A DNA stretch of 64,000 bases from Polytrichum commune. Its lineage: Eukaryota; Streptophyta; Polytrichopsida; Polytrichales; Polytrichaceae. Each line of letters begins with the position of its first letter. The stretch's first letter is position 1. Location of the stretch: positions 11,904,001-11,968,000 of the forward strand of contig OX485809.1 of NCBI GenBank assembly GCA_950295325.1. Reading direction: 5' to 3'. A model generated the notes under the pieces. It made no database searches and was not told the DNA's origin. It saw nothing but the letters and a program-made list of their open reading frames with translations. Below are positions 37,757 to 52,819 of the stretch, piece by piece. The translations under genes and the position numbers were made by a program.

Positions 37757-38005
37757 TGTTAAGGCAGCCTATAGCTAGCCTGACGACCTATAGCCGAATA
37801 TAGATGACGGTAGCCACCTTCCGGAAGGTGGCTACACTATCCCCGCGGTAGTGGGTCCGGGGTTAGTTAAACATAGTATTGTAGGCTACTAAGTGGCGGC
37901 TAAGTCCCATTAATGTACTTAGTCTTAAAGCATATATATACGACCACATGACTCTTGTTAGTCACTTGTACTATCACACTTACCGGCTATTGCCTAGTCT
38001 TAACA
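37757..38005 (+). repeat. 5' LTR of the copia element
   Basis: 249 bp, TG...CA. It contains a perfect 26-bp palindrome at 37810-37835 centred on TTCCGGAA and a TATATATA stretch at 37932-37940, a plausible promoter TATA box. The primer-binding site should follow; CGTTATCAGTCACG at 38006 is loosely like the copia TGGTATCAGAGC site but not a confident match. Confidence 0.95.
37932..37940 (+). promoter_or_regulatory. TATA box of the copia LTR
   Basis: ATATATATA inside the LTR, 66 bp before its end. It is the expected core promoter for the retrotransposon transcript and is also present in the split 3' LTR at about 52530. Confidence 0.5.
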
Positions 38006-38802
38006 CGTTATCAGTCACGATTGCTTGAGAGCTCCTAGTTCAAATTTTTTTCCTCTCTTTCCCGCTCAAGACTAAGCTTCAGCCCTATATAAACCTTAGC
38101 TCACTATCTAGCTCTCTCTCTCTCTCCGCTCCGCTATACCACGCGGAAGCGCTGGTCCTGCACCAACTCATATGATTTACTCTTTAGAACATATTGCAAC
38201 TAGTATCAATGAATCGGACTACAAATTAAGAGAGACCCTGATAGTTAGCTAGAACATCTTAGAGTTTTGCTGCCATAGATAACTTTTTGTCGCTGCTACA
38301 GATAAATCTTCCTTGCTGCAGAAAACTTTCTCCCTTTTGCTACTACAGAAAATCTCACTTTTTGCTGATAGACTTTTCTGGTTGCCACAGATACTATCTT
38401 CTTACTACTTCAGTAAACAAACTCTTATCACTGCCGCAGATAACTCTTATTATGGTTGCAGATATTAACTCCTCTTTTGCAGATAGACTATTTCTGCTGC
38501 TGCCGAGAGCTACATTTTGTTACTACATAAACACACATTGACAAAACTAACTCTGATAAGCCATCCCTCCCTCCTCTCTACTTTTGATGCTTTGTCCGAG
38601 TTAGATCAGCTCTAAACTAACAATGAAATCTGAACCAACAACAAATACAGTCTGGGTATATATATAACCCCACTTTATTACAACAGAAGTATATTTGTAT
38701 ACTTCAGATGCTACACTTGTTGAATCAGATTACAATAGGCTAAAACTAAAAAGTATCATCACTCTAGTAAATTGTTGCCATCTGATTCCTAGATGACCTG
38801 AA
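38006..38802 (+). other. Copia leader with degenerate CTGCNACAGATA repeats
   Basis: Untranslated leader between the LTR and gag. Between about 38260 and 38520 an irregular unit of the form TTGCTGCYACAGATAAC recurs about nine times at steps of 20-40 bp. Its role is unknown; packaging or dimerisation would be guesses. A CT microsatellite lies near 38110-38125. Confidence 0.6.
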
Positions 38803-39759
38803 ATGGCATCATCTTCGAATCAGAGAGTGACATTAGCTACCATAAGCCGACCTCCAGCAGATATCGGTGCAAACATGAAAACCAAATTTACTCCCCTTGC
38901 TACCGATGGGTCAAACTATCTAGAATGGGAAAATGATGCTAGGTTAGCTCTAGGAGCCGAAGAGACAACTATCTATCTTGATAAAACTACAACTGAGGGT
39001 CAACCAGATTCTCTCAAATGTCAAGTATTGATTCTTCTCCGAAGGCACATACACCCATCCTTGAGACAACAATACATTAAAGTAGATCACCCCGCTGACT
39101 TGTGGACTCAGCTACGTGACAGGTTCCATCATGAACAAACCATCTTTCTACCCGAGGCTAGAAATGACTGGATTAATCTCAGGGCCCTTGATTTTCCCGA
39201 CCTACTCTCATTCAACGGGGAACTCCACCGAATCTCATCACAACTCAGTCTGTGTGGCGAGCCAGTTACTGAGGCTCAATTGATCGATAAGACTCTCTCC
39301 ACCTTCCCACCTGCTTCTGCAATTCTTGCCCAGCAATACCGAAACATGAAATTTGAGAAACATAGCACACTGATGTCTCACCTCCTTCTCGCAGAGAAAC
39401 ATCAGGCCATGTTGCTTAAAAATGCAAAATCCAGGCCCGCACGTGAGATCCACGCCATGATAGCTGCTGGACCATCAAAAGGAGTGCTGGCCATACACCT
39501 CTCGGAGGCACCGCGCCGATCTCCAAGGGGTTTCCAACGCCGACCTCCACCTAGGTCATTCAAATTCAAGCCTAGGGACCAAAAACCGAGGTATGTTCCG
39601 CCAAAATATAACGCCTCAACGCTATCGGCATCCTCATGTCATAAATGTGGCCGCCTCGGCCATTATGCGAGAGATTGCCGAGCATCGGCTTACGTAATTG
39701 AGATGTATAAGGAGCTACAAAAATTACGTAGCCAAAATAGAGAGTCTTATGCAATCTAA
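38803..39759 (+). CDS. Copia Gag protein
   Basis: Structural capsid protein of the retrotransposon, 318 aa, intact. The N-terminal half has the plant copia Gag pattern: FTPLATDGSNYLEWENDAR near residue 30, then a helical block through LWTQLRDRFHHEQ. A basic, proline- and arginine-rich linker follows. The single zinc knuckle CHKCGRLGHYARDC spans residues 279-292 (C279, C282, H287, C292). The ATG at 38803 is the first in this frame. The TAA at 39757 ends Gag, and the same frame continues as pol. In most copia elements Gag and Pol are one frame, so this stop is either a nonsense mutation or a Gag/Pol ratio device. Confidence 0.85.
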   Translation: MASSSNQRVTLATISRPPADIGANMKTKFTPLATDGSNYLEWENDARLALGAEETTIYLDKTTTEGQPDSLKCQVLILLRRHIHPSLRQQYIKVDHPADLWTQLRDRFHHEQTIFLPEARNDWINLRALDFPDLLSFNGELHRISSQLSLCGEPVTEAQLIDKTLSTFPPASAILAQQYRNMKFEKHSTLMSHLLLAEKHQAMLLKNAKSRPAREIHAMIAAGPSKGVLAIHLSEAPRRSPRGFQRRPPPRSFKFKPRDQKPRYVPPKYNASTLSASSCHKCGRLGHYARDCRASAYVIEMYKELQKLRSQNRESYAI

Positions 39760-42700
39760 ATTCCGTCCATCCCTGATATGGACATAGAGAATTACATGAC
39801 TGTCACAACTCCAATGACTCAAGGTATGGAGGCTGCCCTCTTGGACAGCGCCTCTACACATACCATATTGAGGAGTTTAACGTTTTTCTCATTCCCGGCT
39901 AGTAACATAGGTTGGCGGACTAGCCACGTTACAACAATAACGGGACAAAAAAACATAACCTTCAAAGAAGGTACAACAACTGTTTTGTTGCCCGGGGACC
40001 ACCAGATAACATGCCGGGACGCTATGTATGCTCCCGATGCCCCCCGGAGCTTGATCAACTACCGGGACTTAAGGGCAAATGGTATCCACGTCTCTACCAC
40101 TATAGAGAACGATGAAGAGGCGCTGACACTCAGGCAGGGACAGAGGACCCTCGCCACCGCATTAGCGGGAGTCGACGGCCTGTATGAGATCGCTATCAAA
40201 GCGATTAGCCCCGCCCCTAGGGTTGAGGAAGAAGTTAGCTTGGTTGCACGGGAGAGAGGTCCCAGTGCGAGAACCCGCAACTTAGCCTGGAAAACTGGCC
40301 TATATCTCACGGCGGCTGCCCTTTCAGATATATGGCATAAAAGGCTTGGGCACCCTGGCACTATCATATTTCGGATGATGATTCCCCTCCTGGCTGGCCA
40401 TAACCTCACATCCGCGGATGTTGCCAAGATAGCCCCATGTGAGGCGTGCATTGAAGACAAGATGATCAAGAGGCCGTCCCAGTAGCAACTTCCCACCGAA
40501 TTGCCGCCACCACTCCATCGACTACAAGGTGATATTTGTGGACCCATCAACCCACCTTCAAGTTCTTTTCGATATTTCCTAGTGCTTATATATGCATCCG
40601 GGAGCCACCTAGAGGTTGCTCTCCTAACTACTAGGAACCTTGTATTTTCCAGAATTCTTGCAATTCTGATACGCTATAAAAACCATTTTTCTGAACACCC
40701 TGTCAAGTTCCTCTGAATGGACAATGCATTAGAATTTCGTTCACATGTATTTGAAGATTATTGTACCGCATCAGGAATCACTTTTACATATGCCGTACCT
40801 TACGAGCATTCTCAAAATGGTTTTGCAGAAGCTTTCATATAGAAAGTTCAGCTAGTAACTAGGCCTTTGCTCATCCATGCTAAGCTCCCAGATTCATTCT
40901 GAGGCCATGCGGTTCTTCATGCCGCAGCCCTCCTACGGTTGAGACCAACCTTACTCAACCAACAAACTCCACATGAACTCATTGCCGGCCGGCCACCCAA
41001 CATTATCCACCTACGTGTATTTGGTTGCCAGGTTTGGGTACCCATACCCGAATCACAACGAAAAACCATAGGGATCCACCGATCCGAGGCAATTTACCTC
41101 GGATATGACTCACCCAACATCATTAGATACATGGACCCCAAGAATGGGGCCATCCTCAAAGCCAGGCTAGTAAACTGTAAGTTCATTGAACACATATTTC
41201 CCACCCCACCAATTGACCGCACAGTCAAACAAGTCCCATTAAACTTCCAGGCTCCGGATACCTTGACCCTAAACCCAGATCCTCGAACTTCACTAGCCGA
41301 CACCGAAGTCACAAAACTCCTAAACTTGAAGGACCTAGCAGAACAGATTCCCGATGGTTTCTACTCCGGCCCTAGAGTACTTCGGAACCCACTACCCGGG
41401 ACAGGTAACACTATAGCTAACAAGAGGTTGGCATCATTCAACTCCAAACCAACCAAGGTTCAACGCACCACATTCAACACTGAAGTTGCACCGGACCCAT
41501 TCACGTTGCCCGCGGCTAAAGCATCACCGGAATGACCCGATTGGAGCAAAGCTCTAGAGACCGAATACGTATCCCTCAAGAAATACCAGGTATTCGGCGA
41601 GGTATCTATTGAACTCACAAAACCTCCAGTGGGCCCGAAACTAATTTTCTCTAGAAAATTTGATGCCAACGGCAAGTTGCTTCGATTCAAGGTCCGCCCT
41701 GTTGCTCAAGGCTTCTCGCAACGGCCGGGAGAGGACTTCGACCAAACTTACGCCCCCATCCTGGATATCACATCATTCAGGTACCTATTGGCATTCGCAG
41801 TCCATTTTTGCCTTGAAATCTTTTTTATGAATATTGTAACGGCATACCTATATGGCAACTTGGATATGCTCTTGTATATATCACCCCCTCCAGATTTCTT
41901 ACCAAAGCTGTCTACCCCCTCACCCGGGAGATTTCTAGGCTTACGCATATGTAAGGCACTATACGGTTTAAAGCAAGCCGGCAGAATATAGTACCACCTA
42001 CTCTGTGATTTTCTGATTTCACATGGGTTTTTGCATGATTCAACTCTACTATGCATCTTTACCTTAATCCAAAATTCACAATATCTAATTGTGGCCGTCT
42101 ATGTGGATGATCTAAATCTAATTGGATCCCCCGCATTGTATAAGCACACCGAAGCTTTACTAACGGCCCAATTTGACATGAAGTTGCTCGGAAAGACCTC
42201 GTTTTGCCTTGGTTTACAGATTCAGCACTTTTCAAATGGCGTCCTCCTACACCAACTGTCATACACCCGCAAGCTGCTCAAAATTTTCAACATGGACCAA
42301 GTTCACGCGTTGGCTGCACGGTTGCACCGATGATCGGGAGGAGCCGTAGTGATGACGACCCGTATCAACCTTGCTCGGAGGAGGAGGAGATAGTGGACAT
42401 GTCCAAATACCTCACGGTGGTTGGAGCTTTCACATATCTAACCACGCACACGCGGCTGGACATTGCCTTCGCAAAGAATATAGTCGCGAGGCACAGTCAA
42501 AAGCCGACCGCCCGCCATTGGAATGGCGTTAAGCACCTACTCCGATACTTGAGAGGAACGGAGGACCTCGGGTTGTACTATAGAAATGACACAAATTGCG
42601 AGATCACAGGATATGCTGACTCTGGATTCAAAACAGATGAGGTAATAGACAAATCTCAGACCGGTTACATATTCATCAAGAACGGAGCGCCGATATCATG

Positions 42701-43086
42701 GAAATCGGCCAAGCAAACTGTGACTGCCACATCCACGAATCATGCCGAACTCTTAGCATTTCACGAAGCATCAAGAGAGGCGGTGTGGCTAAGGACAATG
42801 CAAGATGAACCAGAAGTTCAAACCAACGGTCATATTCGAGGATAACGCATCATGTGTGGCTCAAATGAACACGAGGTTTATTAAGGCTGATCAGGTGAAG
42901 CACATCAGCCCACATATATTCGGATTTGCTCAAGACCTTATAGAAACAGGCCAGATTGAAATAAAGAAGATAGAATCCGAAAACAATATAGCCGATATGC
43001 TCACAAAGGCCTTACCGGCTTACAAGCATAAGAAGCTAGTGTTAGAGGCACGAATGAAAACCTTACACAAACTCATTTCAAACTAG
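39760..43086 (+). pseudogene. Copia Pol (protease, integrase, RT, RNase H), with stops
   Basis: Same frame as gag to about 42310. Protease: LLDSASTHT with catalytic D348 (counted from the gag ATG). Integrase: the pre-integrase segment IWHKRLGHPG, then the CEAC zinc-binding end, DICGPINPP, MDNALEFRS and RLRPTLLNQQTP with LRVFGCQVW. Reverse transcriptase: VRPVAQGFSQRPGEDFDQTY, KALYGLKQAGR and the active site YVDD (codons 1100-1103, at 42100). RNase H: YADSGFKTDE, SWKSAKQTVTATSTNHAE, VIFEDNASC and ADMLTKALP. Nonsense codons lie at 40483, 40714, 40840, 40900, 41533 and 41989, and frameshifts near 42310 and 42830. Three of the stops replace tryptophans conserved in copia proteins. Not functional as it stands. 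Confidence 0.9.
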
Positions 43087-43165
43087 ATTACACTCTTTTC
43101 TTTATTACTGCTTTTCCCCTTTGGGTTTTACAGTAGTAAAGTTTTTAATGAGGTAATCGCTATAG

Positions 43166-43177
43166 TTCGAGGAGGAG
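43166..43177 (+). promoter_or_regulatory. Polypurine tract of the copia element
   Basis: The purine run GAGGAGGAG lies directly before the 3' LTR start at 43178, where plus-strand DNA synthesis is primed in LTR elements. Confidence 0.6.
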
Positions 43178-43222
43178 TGTTAAGGCAGCCTATAGCTAGC
43201 CTGACGACCTATAGCCGAATAT
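43178..43222 (+). repeat. 3' LTR piece 1
   Basis: Identical to the first 45 bp of the 5' LTR, ending GAATAT. The 9.2-kb DNA transposon starts at the next base. Confidence 0.95.
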
Positions 43223-43431
43223 GGGCGAAAGCAAGCTAAGGTGGACCAAAACGGGCGGGAGTCCATGTCCATAGTGTCCATTTGTGATCTTTGTAAAGTA
43301 ACAATGTTGACCTAGCTGTGCTTAGCTGGCGAGGATGACATGGCTCGGCTGCCACTGCAATTAGAATAACGGTCAAACCATTTGGATGAATGTGAACCCG
43401 AATGTAAGGCTACCCTTCGTATGCCTACTCT

Positions 43432-43450
43432 GGTTAGGGTTTAGGGTTAG
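43432..43450 (+). promoter_or_regulatory. Telo-box motifs upstream of the RING-like gene
   Basis: GGTTAGGGTTTAGGGTTAG, two to three head-to-tail telo-box units (AAACCCTAA on the other strand), about 160 bp before the start codon at 43609. Telo-boxes are known plant promoter elements of genes active in dividing cells. The right-hand gene of the same element has them too. Confidence 0.5.
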
Positions 43451-43608
43451 TGTCTCGTCTCCCTCGTGCTGGTTTTGGGAAGCTTTGATTGTGCAAGCTG
43501 TTGACGCTTTGATTGTGTTTGCTGATGCTTAATGCCGTTGCGCCACGAGCCGCACAACACTGTTGTAAGGAGTGGATTTTAATTGCGCACGGCGTCTGAT
43601 TAGTGAAG

Positions 43609-46488
43609 ATGGCATGCGGCACTCAAACACTTGGCAGTGAGGCTAGAAGAGTGAGAATTAAGTTAGAAAGCGAGAGACCACCGTTGTCTCAACGCGTTGG
43701 TGGTTATGCTGCTCCCATTTATGCGAGGGCCCCAGATTTGTTTCCATTGAGGAAAGATGGGGGATACACGCGAAAAGAGTTCCATGAAAAATATGGTTTA
43801 GAGATCTTTGGCTTGTCGCCAAAACAACTAAGATGCCCAGATGATTGCTCAGAGCAGGAGCTTATAGGTTTCTTTGGACCGGTTATAAATAAAAATGGTT
43901 TCCGGTACATGGGTTTAGAAGATGTTAATTTGATTGCAAAGATAGAGCTCAGATGGATGCAAATACACCAGAAGTCGCAGATGCAATCCACTAGGTTGAT
44001 TACGAAGGGCATGGCAAGAGGAATATATTGCGAAGAAAAAAAAGATCGGAAGGTGAACTGGGCGGCATATGCAGAGTGGACCAATGCAGAGCAGTGGAGA
44101 CGAAGGATGAGGATCAAGAGGCCTGGAGGAAGAGGGGATGACAGTTCATTCTTCTCTGATGATGAAGACCTCACAGAAATTGATGACCACGGATCTACCC
44201 AATCGAAGATCAGTATGCAAGAATGCGGATTAGGGTTTAGGCGGGATTTGGCCGGGGTTGAAGTTTTTTCTTGTTCGGGTGGGGTTCCTGAAATGACAGA
44301 GATTTGGAAGAGTTTTCAGAGTCACGCCCTGAAGGAGCTTGCAAAAGTCGACAACAGATTGTTGCTGGGTTTGAAAGCAAAGGAGGAGTACACATTGGCA
44401 GAGGTGCGAGCAAGGTCCCAGAAGGATTTCGTCTACAATTGCCTTGCCTATGCTCGAGAGAAATTGGATAGGTTACATGCTGAACTTGAGCAGGAGCGGC
44501 AACGCATTGAAGCTGGTGGGAGCAACACTAGTGAGGAGGATGCTCAGTTCCAAATCATGAGTAGTAGATTTAGGGCGCAAGAATTTCTTGTTAGCGACTT
44601 TGAGGGGATGGCTGATGAAGGAGATGTTGAGTTGGAGAAGATCGATAAAGGTGAGGAGGGTATAGTTGCTAGGGTGGCTGAACTAGAGGTTGATTCCAAG
44701 AAGGCTGGACGCTTAAGTCGAGCTGTGGAGGTTATCCTCACCAGGTTAGATTCAGGGGCATGGTTGTTTAGATCCATAGCACCGCAACCATTTAAGCATA
44801 GTAAGCCAGATGGGAAGGAATGGGTTATGTTAGAGAAATGTTCTTTTTGTGGATTAGGGTTTGAGCCAGTATGGGATGTGAGACTTGCATCTTGCAAACA
44901 TGGCTACCACGAGTGGTGTTGCAGGTTTCACTTTGAGAAATCAACCAAGTGTGTTGAGGAGGGTTGCGATGAGGAGATGCACGAGGGGTGGTGGAGTGCA
45001 GTTGGTTTGGTAAAGCCAGGCACATCTGCAAGTGTTTTCTCAACTCCAAGGGCGATCAACAAGCTTCCAGATTCACCACTAGGTTCTCTTTACTTTCCCA
45101 TCTCCATAGTGTTCAGCTTTTGGTCTATATTAATGGACTCTTGGATTTTGGTTTAGAGTTTAGCGAGAATTAAAGACTAAAGGTCCACTCCAATATTCTA
45201 AAGTCTATCTTTTCATCAACCTCGTCATACTGAAGTCCATGAGGATCATGCACTAGTACATAGAAGTAGACAATAGTGAGTGATCCCCTACCAATAGTCC
45301 ATATTTGTGGCTCTTAGTGATGCAGGAGTCCATGTCAACATGCATTTGTACATAGAAGAGGCAATATTGAGTAATCCCTATCCAACAATCCATATTTGTC
45401 TTTCTCAGTGATGCAGGAGTCCATGATAATCATGTAACACCACATAGAGGTAGAGAGTAGTGAGTGATCCCCTACCAACAATCCATATTTGTCTTTCTCA
45501 GTGATGCAGGAGTCCATGATAATCATGTAACACCACATACAGGTAGTGAGTAGTGAGTGATCCCCTACCAAGAGTCCATACTTGTGCATCTTGGTGATGT
45601 AGGAGTCCATGTCAACATGCATTTGTACATAGAAGACACAATATTGAGTAATCCCTATCCAACAATCTATATTTGTCTTTCTCAGTGATGCAGGAGTCCA
45701 TGATAATCATGTAACACCACATAGTGTATGAGAGTAGTGAGTGATCCCCTACCAACAGTCCATACTTGTGGCGTTTATGTGAACGTAATGTGCTTTGGTA
45801 TGCAGGTGTGGAGTTTATTGGTACCCCCATCAAAGGTCAAGTGGATCAACATGTGCAATCTATGAGTTGCATCTCGTCTAGCCCTACAGCCACAACCTCA
45901 GGTACTTTATTTCTGAGTGTGCCACAACAAGGACCATCTTCAAATAATTTGCCCCATTCTACTCCAAGTGTTGAACCAGAGCCTCCAGCCCCAATTTCAA
46001 TAGAGAAGCAACCTCCAGCAATGTCAACCAAGTCGAATCCTTTGTCGGAACCTGTTCTGGGTGACGTCACGGAAAAAAAAATACAGTCTACAAAAGGAAC
46101 AGGAGCCACAAGGGTGCATCCGAAGGCTACTGTCACATTTGAAGATAACGAAGAAGATGAGGTAGATGATGAAGAGGATGACGAAGAAGAGGAAGAAGAG
46201 GATCAAGAAGAAGAAGAAGAAGAAGATGGAGAGGAGGCAGAAGAAGTGGAAGGAGTGGAGGAAGGAGGTCGATTGAAGAAGGGTTCCCACAAAAAGGTTG
46301 CAGCTAAGCGCAAATCGGCTGCTACTCATCGGGCTGGGAAAAGGTCCAAAGTGAAGAGCAAATTTGACGGGGCTCCAAAGCATGCCAATGGAGTTGTCAA
46401 CGCAGGAAAGAGGAAGAAGACACCGGTTGTTGACAGGATATCGAAGGCCTCCAACACCCGTGCTGGGAAGGCCCAAAGCTCAAAGTGA
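43609..46488 (+). CDS. Transposon-encoded RING-H2-like protein with acidic and basic tail
   Basis: Accessory gene of the 9.2-kb transposon; I do not recognise the family. Exon 1 is 43609-45082 and exon 2 45806-46488, a GT-AG intron joining in phase to give 718 aa. The N-terminal half lacks a known domain. Residues 270-390 are rich in charged helix (AREKLDRLHAELEQERQ) and may be coiled coil. Residues 411-453 hold C411-x2-C414-x14-C429-x-H431-x2-H434-x2-C437-x10-C448-x4-C453. This is close to a RING-H2 finger, except that the last pair is spaced by four residues instead of two. A Ser/Pro-rich segment and a glutamate/aspartate run (about 604-646) follow, then a Lys/Arg-rich tail (647-718). Likely roles are nuclear, DNA- or chromatin-binding, or ubiquitin ligase; all of this is inference. 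Splicing was inferred from sites and frame only. The intact frame contrasts with the broken transposase. Confidence 0.7.
45224..45775 (+). repeat. Tandem repeat in the intron of the RING-like gene
   Basis: About six copies of an 88-94-bp unit fill most of the 723-bp intron. The anchor GATGYAGGAGTCCATG occurs near 45320, 45410, 45504, 45598 and 45686, with a more diverged first copy at 45230. Each unit also has a GTGAGTGATCCCCTACC-type block. GAGTCCAT, present in each unit, also occurs in the transposon's subterminal regions. Confidence 0.8.
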
Positions 46489-47993
46489 GCCCGGTCCATA
46501 TTTGGACTCCCTTGCAATATGTACATACCAAAGAACATAAATTTAAACAGCACATCAGGAGATTGAAGTCATAGCTATTAATTGAGTCGTGAACATTGGT
46601 TTTACAATAACGTTTAGTACAGAAATAAGTAAAGTTTTTTGTGTTTCCAGCAATACGGTTTCAAGACATGAGAATTCTTTGGATTATGCTCAGATAATTC
46701 CAGAAATGAAGAGAATTCCTAGTTCACTTTCTTAAGTATAGGTTGATCATATCCTAATGATTTGTGAATGAAAAGAGGGTCAAATTTACAGCTCTCTACC
46801 ATAGAAGAGGTATCTCGATTGCTAGTGCTTGCACACTCGTGTATGACAGCAATAAGGTACAAAGCAAGTATAGAATGTGAGAAACCTTGCCTGCATTGTT
46901 TACTAAAAGTTGTAGCTTGCCAGGTGGATCATCCCCTCCAAAAAGCTATTCTACAACTTTTGAAAACTTAAGGATTGAGGGTACAGATCACAAATCAAGT
47001 TCTAAAGCCTGGCATGTTGCACCAAGACCATGTGGTTCAATTTCAGCTTGGACCTCCCACAAACGCTGCTAAGTAGTGACACCATACGAAGGTTAATTAT
47101 GAGCGGTCATTACACAATTGTGCACAAACCTTGGAATGTAGTTATAAGACTTGAGGTCAGGTTCCTATCTATGACAACAGTATCTAGCAGTATTCACCAT
47201 ATGTTCCATCTTAATGAGTTCGGCAGTGCCTCTTCCTGGCCACTTACACATTAGAGTGAAATTAATTGGACTATGGTATATCACGTTCATTTCCGAGTAT
47301 ATCACATTGATCTCCAACACAGGACAAGGATGGTTACTATTCTGCTATTGGCATGCACTCTGTTTTCTGATTGCATCATGGGTTCAGTGATACAACTCTT
47401 GTTAGAATAATAGGTTCAAATACGTCTCAAGGACCTTCCGCTCCCACAATGATCACAACGTCTCTTCACATAAGTATAGTTGAGCAAGTAAGTGTAGCAA
47501 CCATGGAAAAATGCCCAAAGAAAAATCCCAAAGAAAAATAGTTGCCAAACCGTGTGTATTTAAAAACACAATATACATCTTTCAGGGTTCACCTAATTCC
47601 TACATCAAGATAGCCCTATCTAAGAGTCGATAGCTCTTCAACTCCATTCAGGGTGTCACTACATCTCTCCATTATTTGCAGGTTGATGCTGCAAAGGGGA
47701 TGCCAACATGCGCCCACGGATCTTCAAATGCCCCGCAATGCTGCGCCAACAACGCAACATTGTGATTGTACTTCAAATCTCTATATGATGGCAATGATGC
47801 ATGTCAAAAATCGCATTATGCATGTCACAAAGCGAACACACAAGAGGCAACAAGAACATAATTGACGCACCTTCATACTTGCAGCAATATCAGCCATATA
47901 ATCTTCTGTGATCACATATTGACCATGCACTGAAGCATGCACAAAAAACCCTACATGCCCACAAGAAAGTACAACATACAAGATGTGCAGCAA
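46489..47993. other. Gap between the convergent transposon genes
   Basis: No recognised gene in about 1.5 kb. It must contain the 3' ends of both transcripts. Short frames on either strand look accidental. Confidence 0.4.
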
Positions 47994-50900
47994 CTAATCT
48001 TCATCTGCTTCAAGAGTTGCTATGACTGACATGATGCCAGCCTGAGCGTCTGCAGGTAATTCATACACCACATCGTTCCCTTGAACCTTGTGGTCCTTGG
48101 GAGGCATTATGAATTTCACAGCTCTTACAAAACATGCATGCATATATACAGTATGGGAATGTCTTAGAAGCACATATGAATTTTCTGCAGTCCCCCACTT
48201 CTGGTAATACTTTCCGGCTACTACTTCGTCCCCTTCATTGAACGAGGTACCCCACTTATCAGTGAATGGAGCCTTAACAGTATGAAGAGCCTTAGTGCAT
48301 AGAATAATCCAAAAGTCCTCACCTTCGTCGTTACCTGATGCTGCATTAACTGCAAAAATGTCTCCAACATCAAGGGTGGCCGCTAGAAGCTCCCCTTCTG
48401 CCCCATAAGCACTACTACCATCCCAAACCCGCAACATGCTTGCCCTCATGAACTCTGGATCTGCAAGCTGCAAGATAGTAGGAGTCCATTCTCCCGTCCA
48501 CTTCAAATTCACACAATTAGCATAGTCATTGTCAGTACAGTGGGCACAAAAGCAAGCTAATTCCTTCACCATCAACATTCCAACTTGGATTTTGTTGGTT
48601 GCCATGATGGAGTGAAGCTTCCTTGTTCCAGGAACAAAATCGCAAGAATGGGTATTATCCCTCAAAGGCTGCACCTCAGACTCGAGCACATGGTGAAAAT
48701 ATCGTCTTAAAGGCTTTCTATGCCCCATGTATGACGTCTCAGGCCTCTCGGAAAGATTGGCTGTGAGGTAACTCACAACATCTCCAGCATTTTGGAGTTT
48801 CACACCGTACGGTTTTAGCTGCTCCCTTCTGATAAAACATTTGACAACTGCACCAGCCCCATCATGGGGCCCCTTCCCATGACCTAACCCAAAGAAACTC
48901 CAGAGCATAGAGCAACCATTTGTCATATTAGGATAGCGACTTATAAAGTAAAAAGGCTTCTTGGACTTAAATTGAGATGCACAACCATCTGACCAAACCC
49001 AATGTTGTTTTGGCTCAAAACCGTTCCTCTTCATATGGTCCTAGTGCAAGCCAAAACAGTGCTGAACAAACTCTGAGTCATGGTGCTTGTCATCTGAAAT
49101 GTAAAAATGATACTCTGTCAAAATGAAAGTATCTTCATTGTATGGGTCTAGATCTGGGTTGTGTCTGAACGTAATATGAACCAATATACTAACCTGATAA
49201 GAGTGCCAATGCATGCTCTGCACCTCGATCTGGATCTCAAACTTGTAATTCTCTGCAAAGTCCACTACAGATACAACTGTATCCTTGGGAAAGGTTTGAA
49301 TGCTTTTCTTAAATTGTGCATCTTCCCATCGGGCCACAAAGTTATGTGTTACAAAAGCCTGCAATTTAGGCTTCAAATAATCAAAGAACACATCAGCTGT
49401 TGTTTTTTTGTACACAAGGCTCAGTTTCTTCAGGACTTTACCTTTCTTTGAGAGGGTTTCCTCGTAAGCAAACCGTCTCCACTCGACTTGCCTACCGTCT
49501 GTCCCTTCTTCCTCGTCCTTGCACAAAGGGAACTTCTGAATACCGCATCTACCACACTCACCATATAAGCATTTGACGTCATGCCACTCGTCAAATTCGC
49601 CTTTTGGACAGACCACAGACTCCCAACATGATGTCAGCCCTTCAAACTCTATAGAAGAAGCATCACAGCTACCTGACTCCATTCTATGCTGGCACGAGTG
49701 CTCTTTGGGTCTAGTCGCATGGTATTTGTTGAGAGCAATTCTCAATTCATTGAGCTCTACATGGTATATACAACAACATGTGTTGCGCTCTTTCATAGCT
49801 TTGATGAAGAATGGTTTCAAGCTGCAGAAGGAGCGCTCGCCCGCAATAACTTCAGGATGTGCTTTCTGGAATCTGATGAAAAATTGTGTCTGCAACACAT
49901 CAACCATACACTCTGAATGTGAGTGCATTCACTCAATCGCGCGTCCATGCATTCAATAAACTACTATCTGTCACATTCATCTAGTCCATGTTCAGTGTAA
50001 CAATGTTCTTGTATTCCATTTTAATTGTACAATCACAACTGTCATGGACTTCTTACATACGGGAGTCCACTAGTGATTCACTATGGACTCTTCACCATAA
50101 ATGAGTACATAACTGTCCATACAAAGACACTCTACAATAATGTATCCACAGCCATGAACTAGGCTCCTAAACATGATGCTTACAAATGGACATGTAATGT
50201 ATGGCAGTCCTAAACTTGTTAGGCGTAGTCCATTCAAACCTATGGTTAGTGACTTTTGAGAAGCTACTAGACTTATGTGACTAAAACTGAATAGAAAAGC
50301 CCTTTGCAGTATTCAATCCATTGTCGTGGACTTTGCAGGGATGGGACATGCAAAATTGAATATGGATATGGACAATTGAACGCACTAGTGTATCCAACTC
50401 TCCATAGAGTGCTTCTATAAACTCGGTATTGGTATTCAAGATTTTTTACAAAGGAATTGAAGATTGTCATACCTGAGTCTCCTGCAAATAATGTGTGGGC
50501 TTCTCGTCTCGCACACTTGCAGAGATCCGCTTCCGAGTCACGTCCTTCTTATTGGGAGACACTCTTGTCTCCAAAATCCACCACTTGATTATAATATGCT
50601 TTTCATCAAGTGTGATACCATCAACACGCTTTGTCCTCACTGACAAAGAAAACAAAAAATCTCCCGCAGTGTGCATAACCTCCCGCCTCACAACGGCCTT
50701 AGAGACATTGCGGTGGTGGATGCGCAAAACCTTTGCAACCTGCCTTGCCGAGGAGTCGCCCTGTTCAAGGATCGACGCATCCAAAATGGCATGCTTTATT
50801 GCCAATTTTGAAGCACTATTTGCGCTCCTGACTTCATCTAGGCGTATAGTAACACCACGCAATATCTCTTGTTGTGCAACGGCTACCTTCTTTGGCAAAA

Positions 50901-51324
50901 CATAGTCTGGAACATCGACACATAGTCGATTATGATTGAGGACCCTCCCAATAACCGACCTTCTAGATCTAGGTCCAGGGCACACATCTAAGTTCCTCTG
51001 GATACACTCAACAATAACGGAAGCAAGTCTGCTCTCTTCACGCCTAGTCATAGAGTCCTCAACGTCCCGCATTACGTCTCGATCGTTGCGCTCCACACAT
51101 TCTACTTCTGTGTGACAAAGTAGGGACTCTTTCCGAATCCCATCGATCTTTGCAAGAAGAGCGCGGCTTCTTGCTTTCCGCGCATTCTGCACAGCTAATC
51201 TTGTCAACCTTGCTTGCTCCTGTACTTGGGAGGCATGATATGCATTAAGAGCTGCAGCTTGACGTAGTTGAGGTCCTGGCTGCCTCACGCCTGCCCTTCT
51301 TTCCTTCACCTTCCGAGACCCCAT
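47994..51324 (-). pseudogene. DDE/D-type transposase of the 9.2-kb element (one in-frame stop)
   Basis: Presumed transposase, about 915 codons. Exon 1 is 51324-50473 and exon 2 49889-47994; the 583-bp GT-AG intron joins in phase within ...HYLQETQ/TQFFIRF. Exon 1 is basic at its start, with a probable helix-turn-helix at residues 185-215 (SARQVAKVLRIHHRNVSKAV) and the segment TRVSPNKKDVTRKR. Exon 2 begins with a Cys-rich region (residues 322-407), then VVSVVDFAENY (D494), WSDGCASQFKS (D585) and GHGKGPHDGAG (D627), a likely RNase H-fold catalytic triad. Near 680-710 is a CFCAHC cluster, and the C-terminus (DFWIILC...KWGTSFNEGDEVV...VRAVKFIM) looks like a small beta-rich reader domain. A TAG at about 49043-49041 lies between D494 and D585; the frame continues unchanged beyond it. 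The start ATG at 51324 is the first in frame. Proteins with this D...SDG...HGKGP pattern are widespread in eukaryotic genomes as uncharacterised transposases. Confidence 0.72.
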
Positions 51325-51361
51325 TAAAACACGCGCATCCAAACGCAGAAGGCTCCGAAAT

Positions 51362-51380
51362 CCCCTAAACCCTAAACCTC
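51362..51380 (-). promoter_or_regulatory. Telo-box motifs upstream of the transposase gene
   Basis: CCCCTAAACCCTAAACCTC lies about 40 bp before the transposase start codon at 51324 (minus strand), with another AACCTAAACCCTAG at 51628-51641. It mirrors the telo-boxes before the plus-strand gene at the other end. Confidence 0.5.
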
Positions 51381-52163
51381 AACCCCAATATCATACAACC
51401 CCAAAATCAGTTTTCCCAAAACAAAATGATACATACAATTATCCACACGGTTGCACCTACAAACTGCGAGGTCAACTTTGCTCAAGAAAAAAAAAAACCC
51501 ACACGCAATCACCTGCACTTGAATCCAATCTCTCTCTAAGCCGCCTCTGGTGCAATTAATTTCAATCCTGGGCACGCCTCTTCCGTCCAAACTTGAAGAT
51601 TGGGTGTCAATCTGATACTCAAGAAAAACCTAAACCCTAGCCCCGGAATGCCAACTTGCATTGATAAGCGCCCTCAACAACTGTGAAAAATCCAAACAAG
51701 CATACGCTCCGGCAGGGCCCAAGGAGCGTCAGGGAGCAAACTGAACGGAGGAAAGTTGAGGCTCGAGCGAAGAGGGAGGGATGAAATCTGACACTGGGAT
51801 GAAATTCATCCTAGGGCCTCAATATGACGAGACTGGGAATAGGGTGCATCTCCGTGACTACAATTTTGCAAACGGGCATAAAATCTGAATTAAAATCTAG
51901 ACAACCCTAGATTAGGACTTCTTAAGAAAATGTAGTGAAGGTTGTCTCATGAAAAATTAGGAAGTAGGGGGTCAAAAGTTACACCAAAAATAGTTCAGAT
52001 TTTTGAGGACTCAAAAGTCCATATTAGCACATATAAGTGTGTGTTCATTGAATTTTTTGAGAGGAAACTATTCTAATAACTTATCTCTATTTAAATTTGT
52101 AATCAATATTGGGGTTTACCTTCTCTAATATATAGGATTTGAGTCCATACACCCTATAACTAA

Positions 52164-52365
52164 GGACTGTGACAGTCCATATGGAAGACATTCAAAAGTC
52201 CCCCCCTTTGAGAATACAATAATTTTTTCAAATAAAACTCTACTACATGATAGTATACCAAGTCTTCAACATATATACAAGTCCTTTTCATGTAAACAAC
52301 ATCTCCACACAAATTGAGGGCCCTACAAACTTATAAAGCCATAAATCTATGGACTGTGACAGTCC
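52164..52365. repeat. Subterminal near-palindromes GGACTGTGACAGTCC
   Basis: The 15-bp near-palindrome GGACTGTGACAGTCC, followed by ATA, occurs at 52164-52178 and 52351-52365, within 235 bp of the right end. Related AGTCCATA words occur nearby (about 52010 and 52142) and in the left end (about 43252-43275). These are candidate transposase-binding sites. Confidence 0.5.
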
Positions 52366-52395
52366 ATAGTGGTCCACCGTAGCTTGCAATCGCCC

Positions 52396-52558
52396 ATATA
52401 GATGACGGTAGCCGCCTTCCGGAAGGTGGCTACACTATCCCCGCGGTAGTGGGTCCGGGGTTAGTTAAACATAGTATTGTAGGCTACTAAGTGGCGGCTA
52501 AGTCCCATTAATGTACTTAGTCTTAAAGCATATATATACGACCACATGACTCTTGTTA
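52396..52558 (+). repeat. 3' LTR piece 2
   Basis: Matches positions 42-204 of the 5' LTR, starting with the duplicated ATAT and ending TTGTTA. One difference: the palindrome here reads GCCGCC where the 5' LTR has GCCACC. Confidence 0.95.
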
Positions 52559-52819
52559 GAGCATCCCCACCAGACCGGGCACCGCCCCGGGCATAATTGC
52601 ACCGGTGGCATCCCGGGCATAGTGTGGGTTTACCCGACATATTGTTGGAGCCCACTAGCTCGGGTACATGCCCCTCTTCGAGGCCGGCCCCCGCCCGGTA
52701 TTACCCCCTTGCCCGATTCCATTAGCCTTGCCCGATGTCTTGCCCGGATACCGATTCCGTGCCCGATGTGTTGCCCGATTCCCTATCCGATCCCTTTCGG
52801 TTCTCCGCCCGGAAATATA

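Follow-up and report, generated by a model that had tools for sequence, protein, structure and literature searches.

A probable Sola-like DNA transposon lineage with a conserved RING-H2-like partner gene in the moss Polytrichum commune

A DNA element of 9,173 bp, with two convergent genes between inverted terminal repeats, occupies positions 43223-52395 of the 64,000-nucleotide stretch of Polytrichum commune DNA analyzed here (the window), inserted in the 3′ LTR of a Copia element that is itself young. One gene, on the minus strand, encodes a transposase and the other, on the plus strand, a RING-H2-like protein, hereafter the partner. The introns of both genes are predicted from GT...AG sites and reading frame. 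The features are as follows, with identities relative to the nearest relative in the genome (C6:10563749-10572336; copy 2).

37757-37961, plus strand: 5′ LTR of the Copia element, with an uninterrupted target site
43219-43222: left 4-bp target duplication, ATAT
43223-43248, plus strand: left terminal inverted repeat, GGGCGAAAGCAAGCTAAGGTGGACCA; copy 2 has the same end
43609-45082, plus strand: partner exon 1, with an N-terminal domain, a coiled-coil-like middle and the RING-H2-like module (86% identical)
44839-44994, plus strand: RING-H2-like Cys/His module, C-x2-C-x14-C-x-H-x2-H-x2-C-x10-C-x4-C
45083-45805, plus strand: partner intron, holding a GTCCAT-rich 93-bp tandem array (45258-45769)
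45806-46488, plus strand: partner exon 2, with an acidic run, then a basic tail and a TGA stop (homologous exon in copy 2)
47994-49889, minus strand: transposase exon 2, the catalytic part (91% identical)
48861-48863, 48987-48989 and 49260-49262, minus strand: codons of D627, D585 and D494, respectively, numbered in the full spliced protein
49041-49043, minus strand: in-frame TAG in the transposase (TGG in copy 2)
49890-50472, minus strand: transposase intron, GT...AG
50473-51324, minus strand: transposase exon 1 (83% identical)
50680-50754, minus strand: HTH-like stretch in transposase exon 1, recognized by eye as SSARQVAKVLRIHHRNVSKAVVRRE
52370-52395, minus strand: right terminal inverted repeat, GGGCGATTGCAAGCTACGGTGGACCA
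52396-52399: right 4-bp target duplication, ATAT

A sequence-only reading had described exact borders with flanking ATAT and an uninterrupted target in the sister LTR, a transposase with a D...SDGC...HGKGPHDG pattern, and a second spliced gene for a RING-like protein lying tail-to-tail with the first, and on each of these points it was borne out. The element begins with GGGCGA at 43223 and ends with TCGCCC at 52395, with termini, GGGCGAAAGCAAGCTAAGGTGGACCA and GGGCGATTGCAAGCTACGGTGGACCA, that are inverted repeats of each other over 26 bp apart from three mismatches. Matches to the TIR pattern in the window are confined to these two ends, and none occurred in 100 shuffles. Joining the flanks and deleting one ATAT gives a sequence that agrees with the 5′ LTR (37757-37961) at 204 of 205 positions, and the single ATAT of that LTR, within GAATATAGATG at 37796, represents the empty target. 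The Copia element itself (37757-52559) has LTRs of ~205 bp that differ at one position, and since its LTRs are nearly identical, its insertion is young and that of the transposon younger still; the insertion of the window copy is thus recent.

The transposase carries three aspartates, D494 (VIDFAENY), D585 (WSDGC) and D627 (HGKGPHDGAG), that are invariant or nearly so in 18 aligned sequences, where they occupy columns D210, D301 and D343 of the exon 2 numbering. Their order and settings would fit an RNase H-type D-D-D site, and the three residues presumably carry out catalysis. Neither Pfam nor NCBIfam, searched with all exons, returned a transposase match, nor did a sequence search of PDB, and an AlphaFold2 model of the window's catalytic exon as a single sequence (pLDDT 32) gave a fold without confidence. 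Because of the in-frame TAG in exon 2, the window copy is probably defective, and it is probably non-autonomous unless copies elsewhere supply transposase. The TAG may have been acquired after insertion, or the window copy may have been mobilized in trans.

The Cys/His module of the partner, shared by 12 partner relatives, conserves all of the ligands of the RING-H2 consensus, C-x2-C-x(9-39)-C-x(1-3)-H-x2-H-x2-C-x(4-48)-C-x2-C, with C-x4-C instead as its last spacing. Nine of the 12 members gave weak matches to the Pfam RING-H2 model (PF13639; best E 0.0018), the window protein falling below the curated cut-off, and the best PDB matches of the partner were mostly RING-H2 ligases, again weak (E 0.17-1.4). 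The RING-like stretch alone, modeled with AlphaFold2, reached a pLDDT of 45, and its fold was not usable. On this sequence evidence, RING-H2-like appears to be a fair label. In some relatives, including C4:3392000-3400167 and C1:72556037-72564236, there are two separate partner-like open frames of ~550-570 aa, both opposite the transposase.

Candidate cis sequences are also present. The motif GTCCATA occurs 13 times in the element, a density of 1.42 per kb as compared with 0.14 per kb elsewhere in the window, and the shorter GTCCAT is concentrated at sites near the two ends and within the two introns, one of them being the 93-bp array of the partner intron; both motifs may be binding sites. 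That array comprises 5.5 copies, and copy 2 possesses its own array with the same spacing.

ATAT alone is ambiguous in length, and therefore the duplications of other copies were read. Copy 2, which is 79% identical to the window copy over the first kilobase, has 26-bp ends without a mismatch and is flanked on each side by ATAG, ruling out a 0-bp or 2-bp duplication concealed by the repetitive ATAT. A degenerate end pattern built from the subfamilies found 400 matches in the 408-Mb host genome versus seven for a reversed control. Among 16 elements with a transposase or partner and both ends, the window copy included, 14 possess an exact 4-bp duplication and none a longer one. The sequences duplicated are ATAT, ATAG, TCCT, GTGG, TATG, AAGA, ATAA, AATA, ATTA, TTGA (twice), TAGA, CACA and AAGT, a variety that argues against any fixed target; the duplications are thus 4 bp long and show little sequence preference at the target. 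Collecting genomic copies by their termini was one of the checks that the sequence-only reading had proposed. That reading had listed 25-bp GGGCGA termini and an ATAT site as part of an unfamiliar combination. The ends of the window copy measure 26 bp, its GGGCGA end is common to it and one close copy only, and ATAT is the site of the window copy itself; in more distant relatives, the ends are GGGTGTAGG or GGGTAGATG and the duplicated 4-mers include TCCT, GTGG and AAGA.

Several further structures were noticed among the relatives. A related end sequence, GGGTGNNAGCATGGTAAAGTGGACCA, has ~245 exact copies in the genome, none of its listed places being at a listed transposase locus, and probably marks one end of a non-autonomous family present in high copy number; the other end of that family was not found. 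A 15.7-kb subfamily (C1:24062755-24078455, C4:8184854-8200553, C2:62965576-62999015 and others) possesses an internal end sequence, GGGTGGATGCATGGTTGAGTGGACCA, in the same orientation ~4.66 kb from the partner-side end, with partner matches on both sides of it in at least some copies, and gives the impression of having acquired an additional terminal segment. Two of the copies, C1:24062755-24078455 and C1:24132894-24148594, are inverted relative to each other, their partner-side loci being 100% identical over 4,368 bp, including more than 1 kb of flank, and represent a recent inverted duplication or an assembly artefact.

Sola is the best-fitting known superfamily for these elements, as judged from feature descriptions: the DDD pattern, the 4-bp duplications and its presence in moss. 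Descriptions of Sola (Sola1, Sola2 and Sola3) give it a DDD transposase, duplications of 4 bp, a length of 2-9 kb with some elements exceeding 15 kb, and very variable ends, and include members from the moss Physcomitrella (PMC10741241, PMC9033089). The present lineage agrees in its 4-bp duplications (14 of 16 elements) and in TIRs that at 26 bp, perfect in copy 2, exceed the 11-bp minimum; its three conserved D columns, which follow the expected order in the alignment, are candidates for the DDD triad. The sequence-only reading had found that the element fits no superfamily that it could name with confidence and offered a Sola-like one as a first guess only. That the element fits no superfamily is not supported; the features that were tested fit Sola, and the guess has become the best-supported placement, with membership of Sola being what we infer. 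What sets the lineage apart is the RING-H2-like partner, which is fixed in it and goes unmentioned in the Sola descriptions (PMC10741241, PMC9033089). A gene on the strand opposite the transposase is also present in a giant Sola-1 element of Ectocarpus (PMC12477816).

The association of the two genes extends throughout the genome. At 45 of 51 transposase loci, the partner lies downstream and tail-to-tail (44 within 30 kb, and C4:18818675 at 33 kb), at one locus it has another orientation, and six loci lack a partner match within 30 kb, one of the six being that with its partner at 33 kb. With 90 partner matches in 408 Mb, chance linkage would be expected at ~1%. In 12 linked pairs, moreover, the pairwise divergences of transposase and partner match closely (Mantel r 0.96, 0 of 5000 permutations), and this correspondence spans transposases that are up to ~50% different. 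Comparison of the window copy with copy 2 gave dN/dS values of 0.16 for transposase exon 2, 0.41 for transposase exon 1 and 0.31 for partner exon 1; purifying selection acts on both genes. By virtue of this linkage, co-divergence and dN/dS, the partner is a long-standing functional component, and it is the unusual part of the element, conserved across the whole lineage in the host genome.

That the genes have co-evolved in ~45 copies within one genome suggests that movement of the element requires two proteins, and we consider it likely that this is a DNA transposon of the cut-and-paste type, from a Sola-like lineage, that employs both. The transposase, with its HTH-like N-terminus and DDD domain, would bind the ends through the 26-bp TIR and the subterminal GTCCATA motifs, excise the element and reinsert it at staggered cuts, generating 4-bp duplications at almost any site. 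The partner, which probably assists the transposase, would be a required helper that most likely binds the transposase or the DNA-bound complex, or else acts as a ubiquitin ligase whose substrates are host proteins or the transposase; alternatively, it might shield the element from the host. End binding and the partner's biochemical role are both predictions of this scheme.

It is conceivable that the partner is instead a passenger that is not needed for transposition, for instance one that promotes the persistence of the element through anti-silencing or host control, although we regard this as the less probable account. A RING-H2-like module suggests ubiquitin ligase activity that could be directed at host silencing proteins, and the two partner-like ORFs of some subfamilies are what might be seen with an adaptable accessory factor. 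Moreover, the giant Sola-1 element of Ectocarpus, Sola1-1_Ec32 (21.5 kb), likewise has a second gene opposite its transposase, but one that is ParB-like with a DNA methyltransferase rather than RING-like (PMC12477816). Set against this, linkage at 45 of 51 loci and the matched divergence exceed what would be expected of optional cargo, and are compatible with a helper and with a silencing antagonist alike. Linkage and co-divergence thus demonstrate the importance of the partner to the element, and would fit help in transposition as well as protection from the host.

A wider reading of the same facts, possible and put forward only tentatively, is that the lineage represents either a superfamily not yet described or a deep branch within Sola that is likewise undescribed, in which a DDD transposase and a co-evolved RING-H2 ubiquitin-ligase-like partner form an obligate two-component system. 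The narrower proposition, of a separate undescribed superfamily that is obligately two-component and resembles Sola only in its 4-bp duplication and D-D-D arrangement, seems rather unlikely. Such a superfamily would be in keeping with the lack of any library model matching the transposase, but we know of no Sola model in Pfam, and so no match was to be expected there either way. It would also be in keeping with the lack of any described element with such a gene pair in the papers searched; these papers likewise yielded neither a Sola element accompanied by a RING partner nor the HGKGP motif. Sola is said to occur in bacteria too (PMC10741241), and no relative of the transposase was found in prokaryotic or viral contigs with a transposase-profile scan and two short peptide patterns, although the contig scans relied on those short patterns. 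Against a separate superfamily, the lineage fits Sola in the length of its duplications, its DDD pattern, its size, its variable ends and its host group. LFY-family genes mark the host as a streptophyte.

Assignment to another described superfamily, namely Harbinger, MuDR, ProtoRAG/Transib, Kolobok, Ginger, EnSpm, KDZ or Dada, is highly improbable in view of the observed 4-bp duplications of varied sequence and GGG...CCC ends, and no Pfam transposase model matches. MuDR is a plant element that also has two convergent genes, mudrA and mudrB, the second of unclear role, but its inverted repeats are long and its duplications ~9 bp, unlike those of the present element. Mutator duplications of 7-12 bp likewise differ from the 4 bp observed, as do the longer ones of KDZ and Zisupton (8 bp) and Dada (6-7 bp). 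Kolobok duplicates TTAA (PMC9587614) and Ginger has TG...CA termini (PMC10741241), neither of which is seen here. Tail-to-tail gene pairs are found in Harbinger and Pangu of Ectocarpus, which differ in their 3-bp TNA or ANT duplications (PMC12477816), and in ProtoRAG, whose RAG1L and RAG2L genes lie between inverted repeats and which differs by its 5-bp duplications and Transib-type transposase (PMC7481187). Vertebrate RAG1 has a RING finger (PMC4411706), a likeness to the module of the present partner, but in the RAG system the RING belongs to the transposase, RAG1, and not to its partner. Finally, it is scarcely credible that an assembly join or degenerate repeats were mistaken for a transposon: the target duplication is exact, the sister LTR preserves the site without interruption, and a second full copy, at a different locus, is flanked by a duplication of its own, ATAG.

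The Sola-like placement is therefore retained, and what is new is a RING-H2-like partner fixed in a Sola-like lineage, which makes this a two-component Sola-like lineage. Sola is among the least studied of the eukaryotic transposon superfamilies, and the present lineage comprises dozens of copies, several of them with intact exons and near-identical sequence. With its fixed partner, it would provide a concrete system in which to ask whether a RING-type protein acts as a transposition factor or as a silencing antagonist, and it offers a parallel to the RAG transposon, with tail-to-tail gene pairs and RING domains occurring in a different superfamily.
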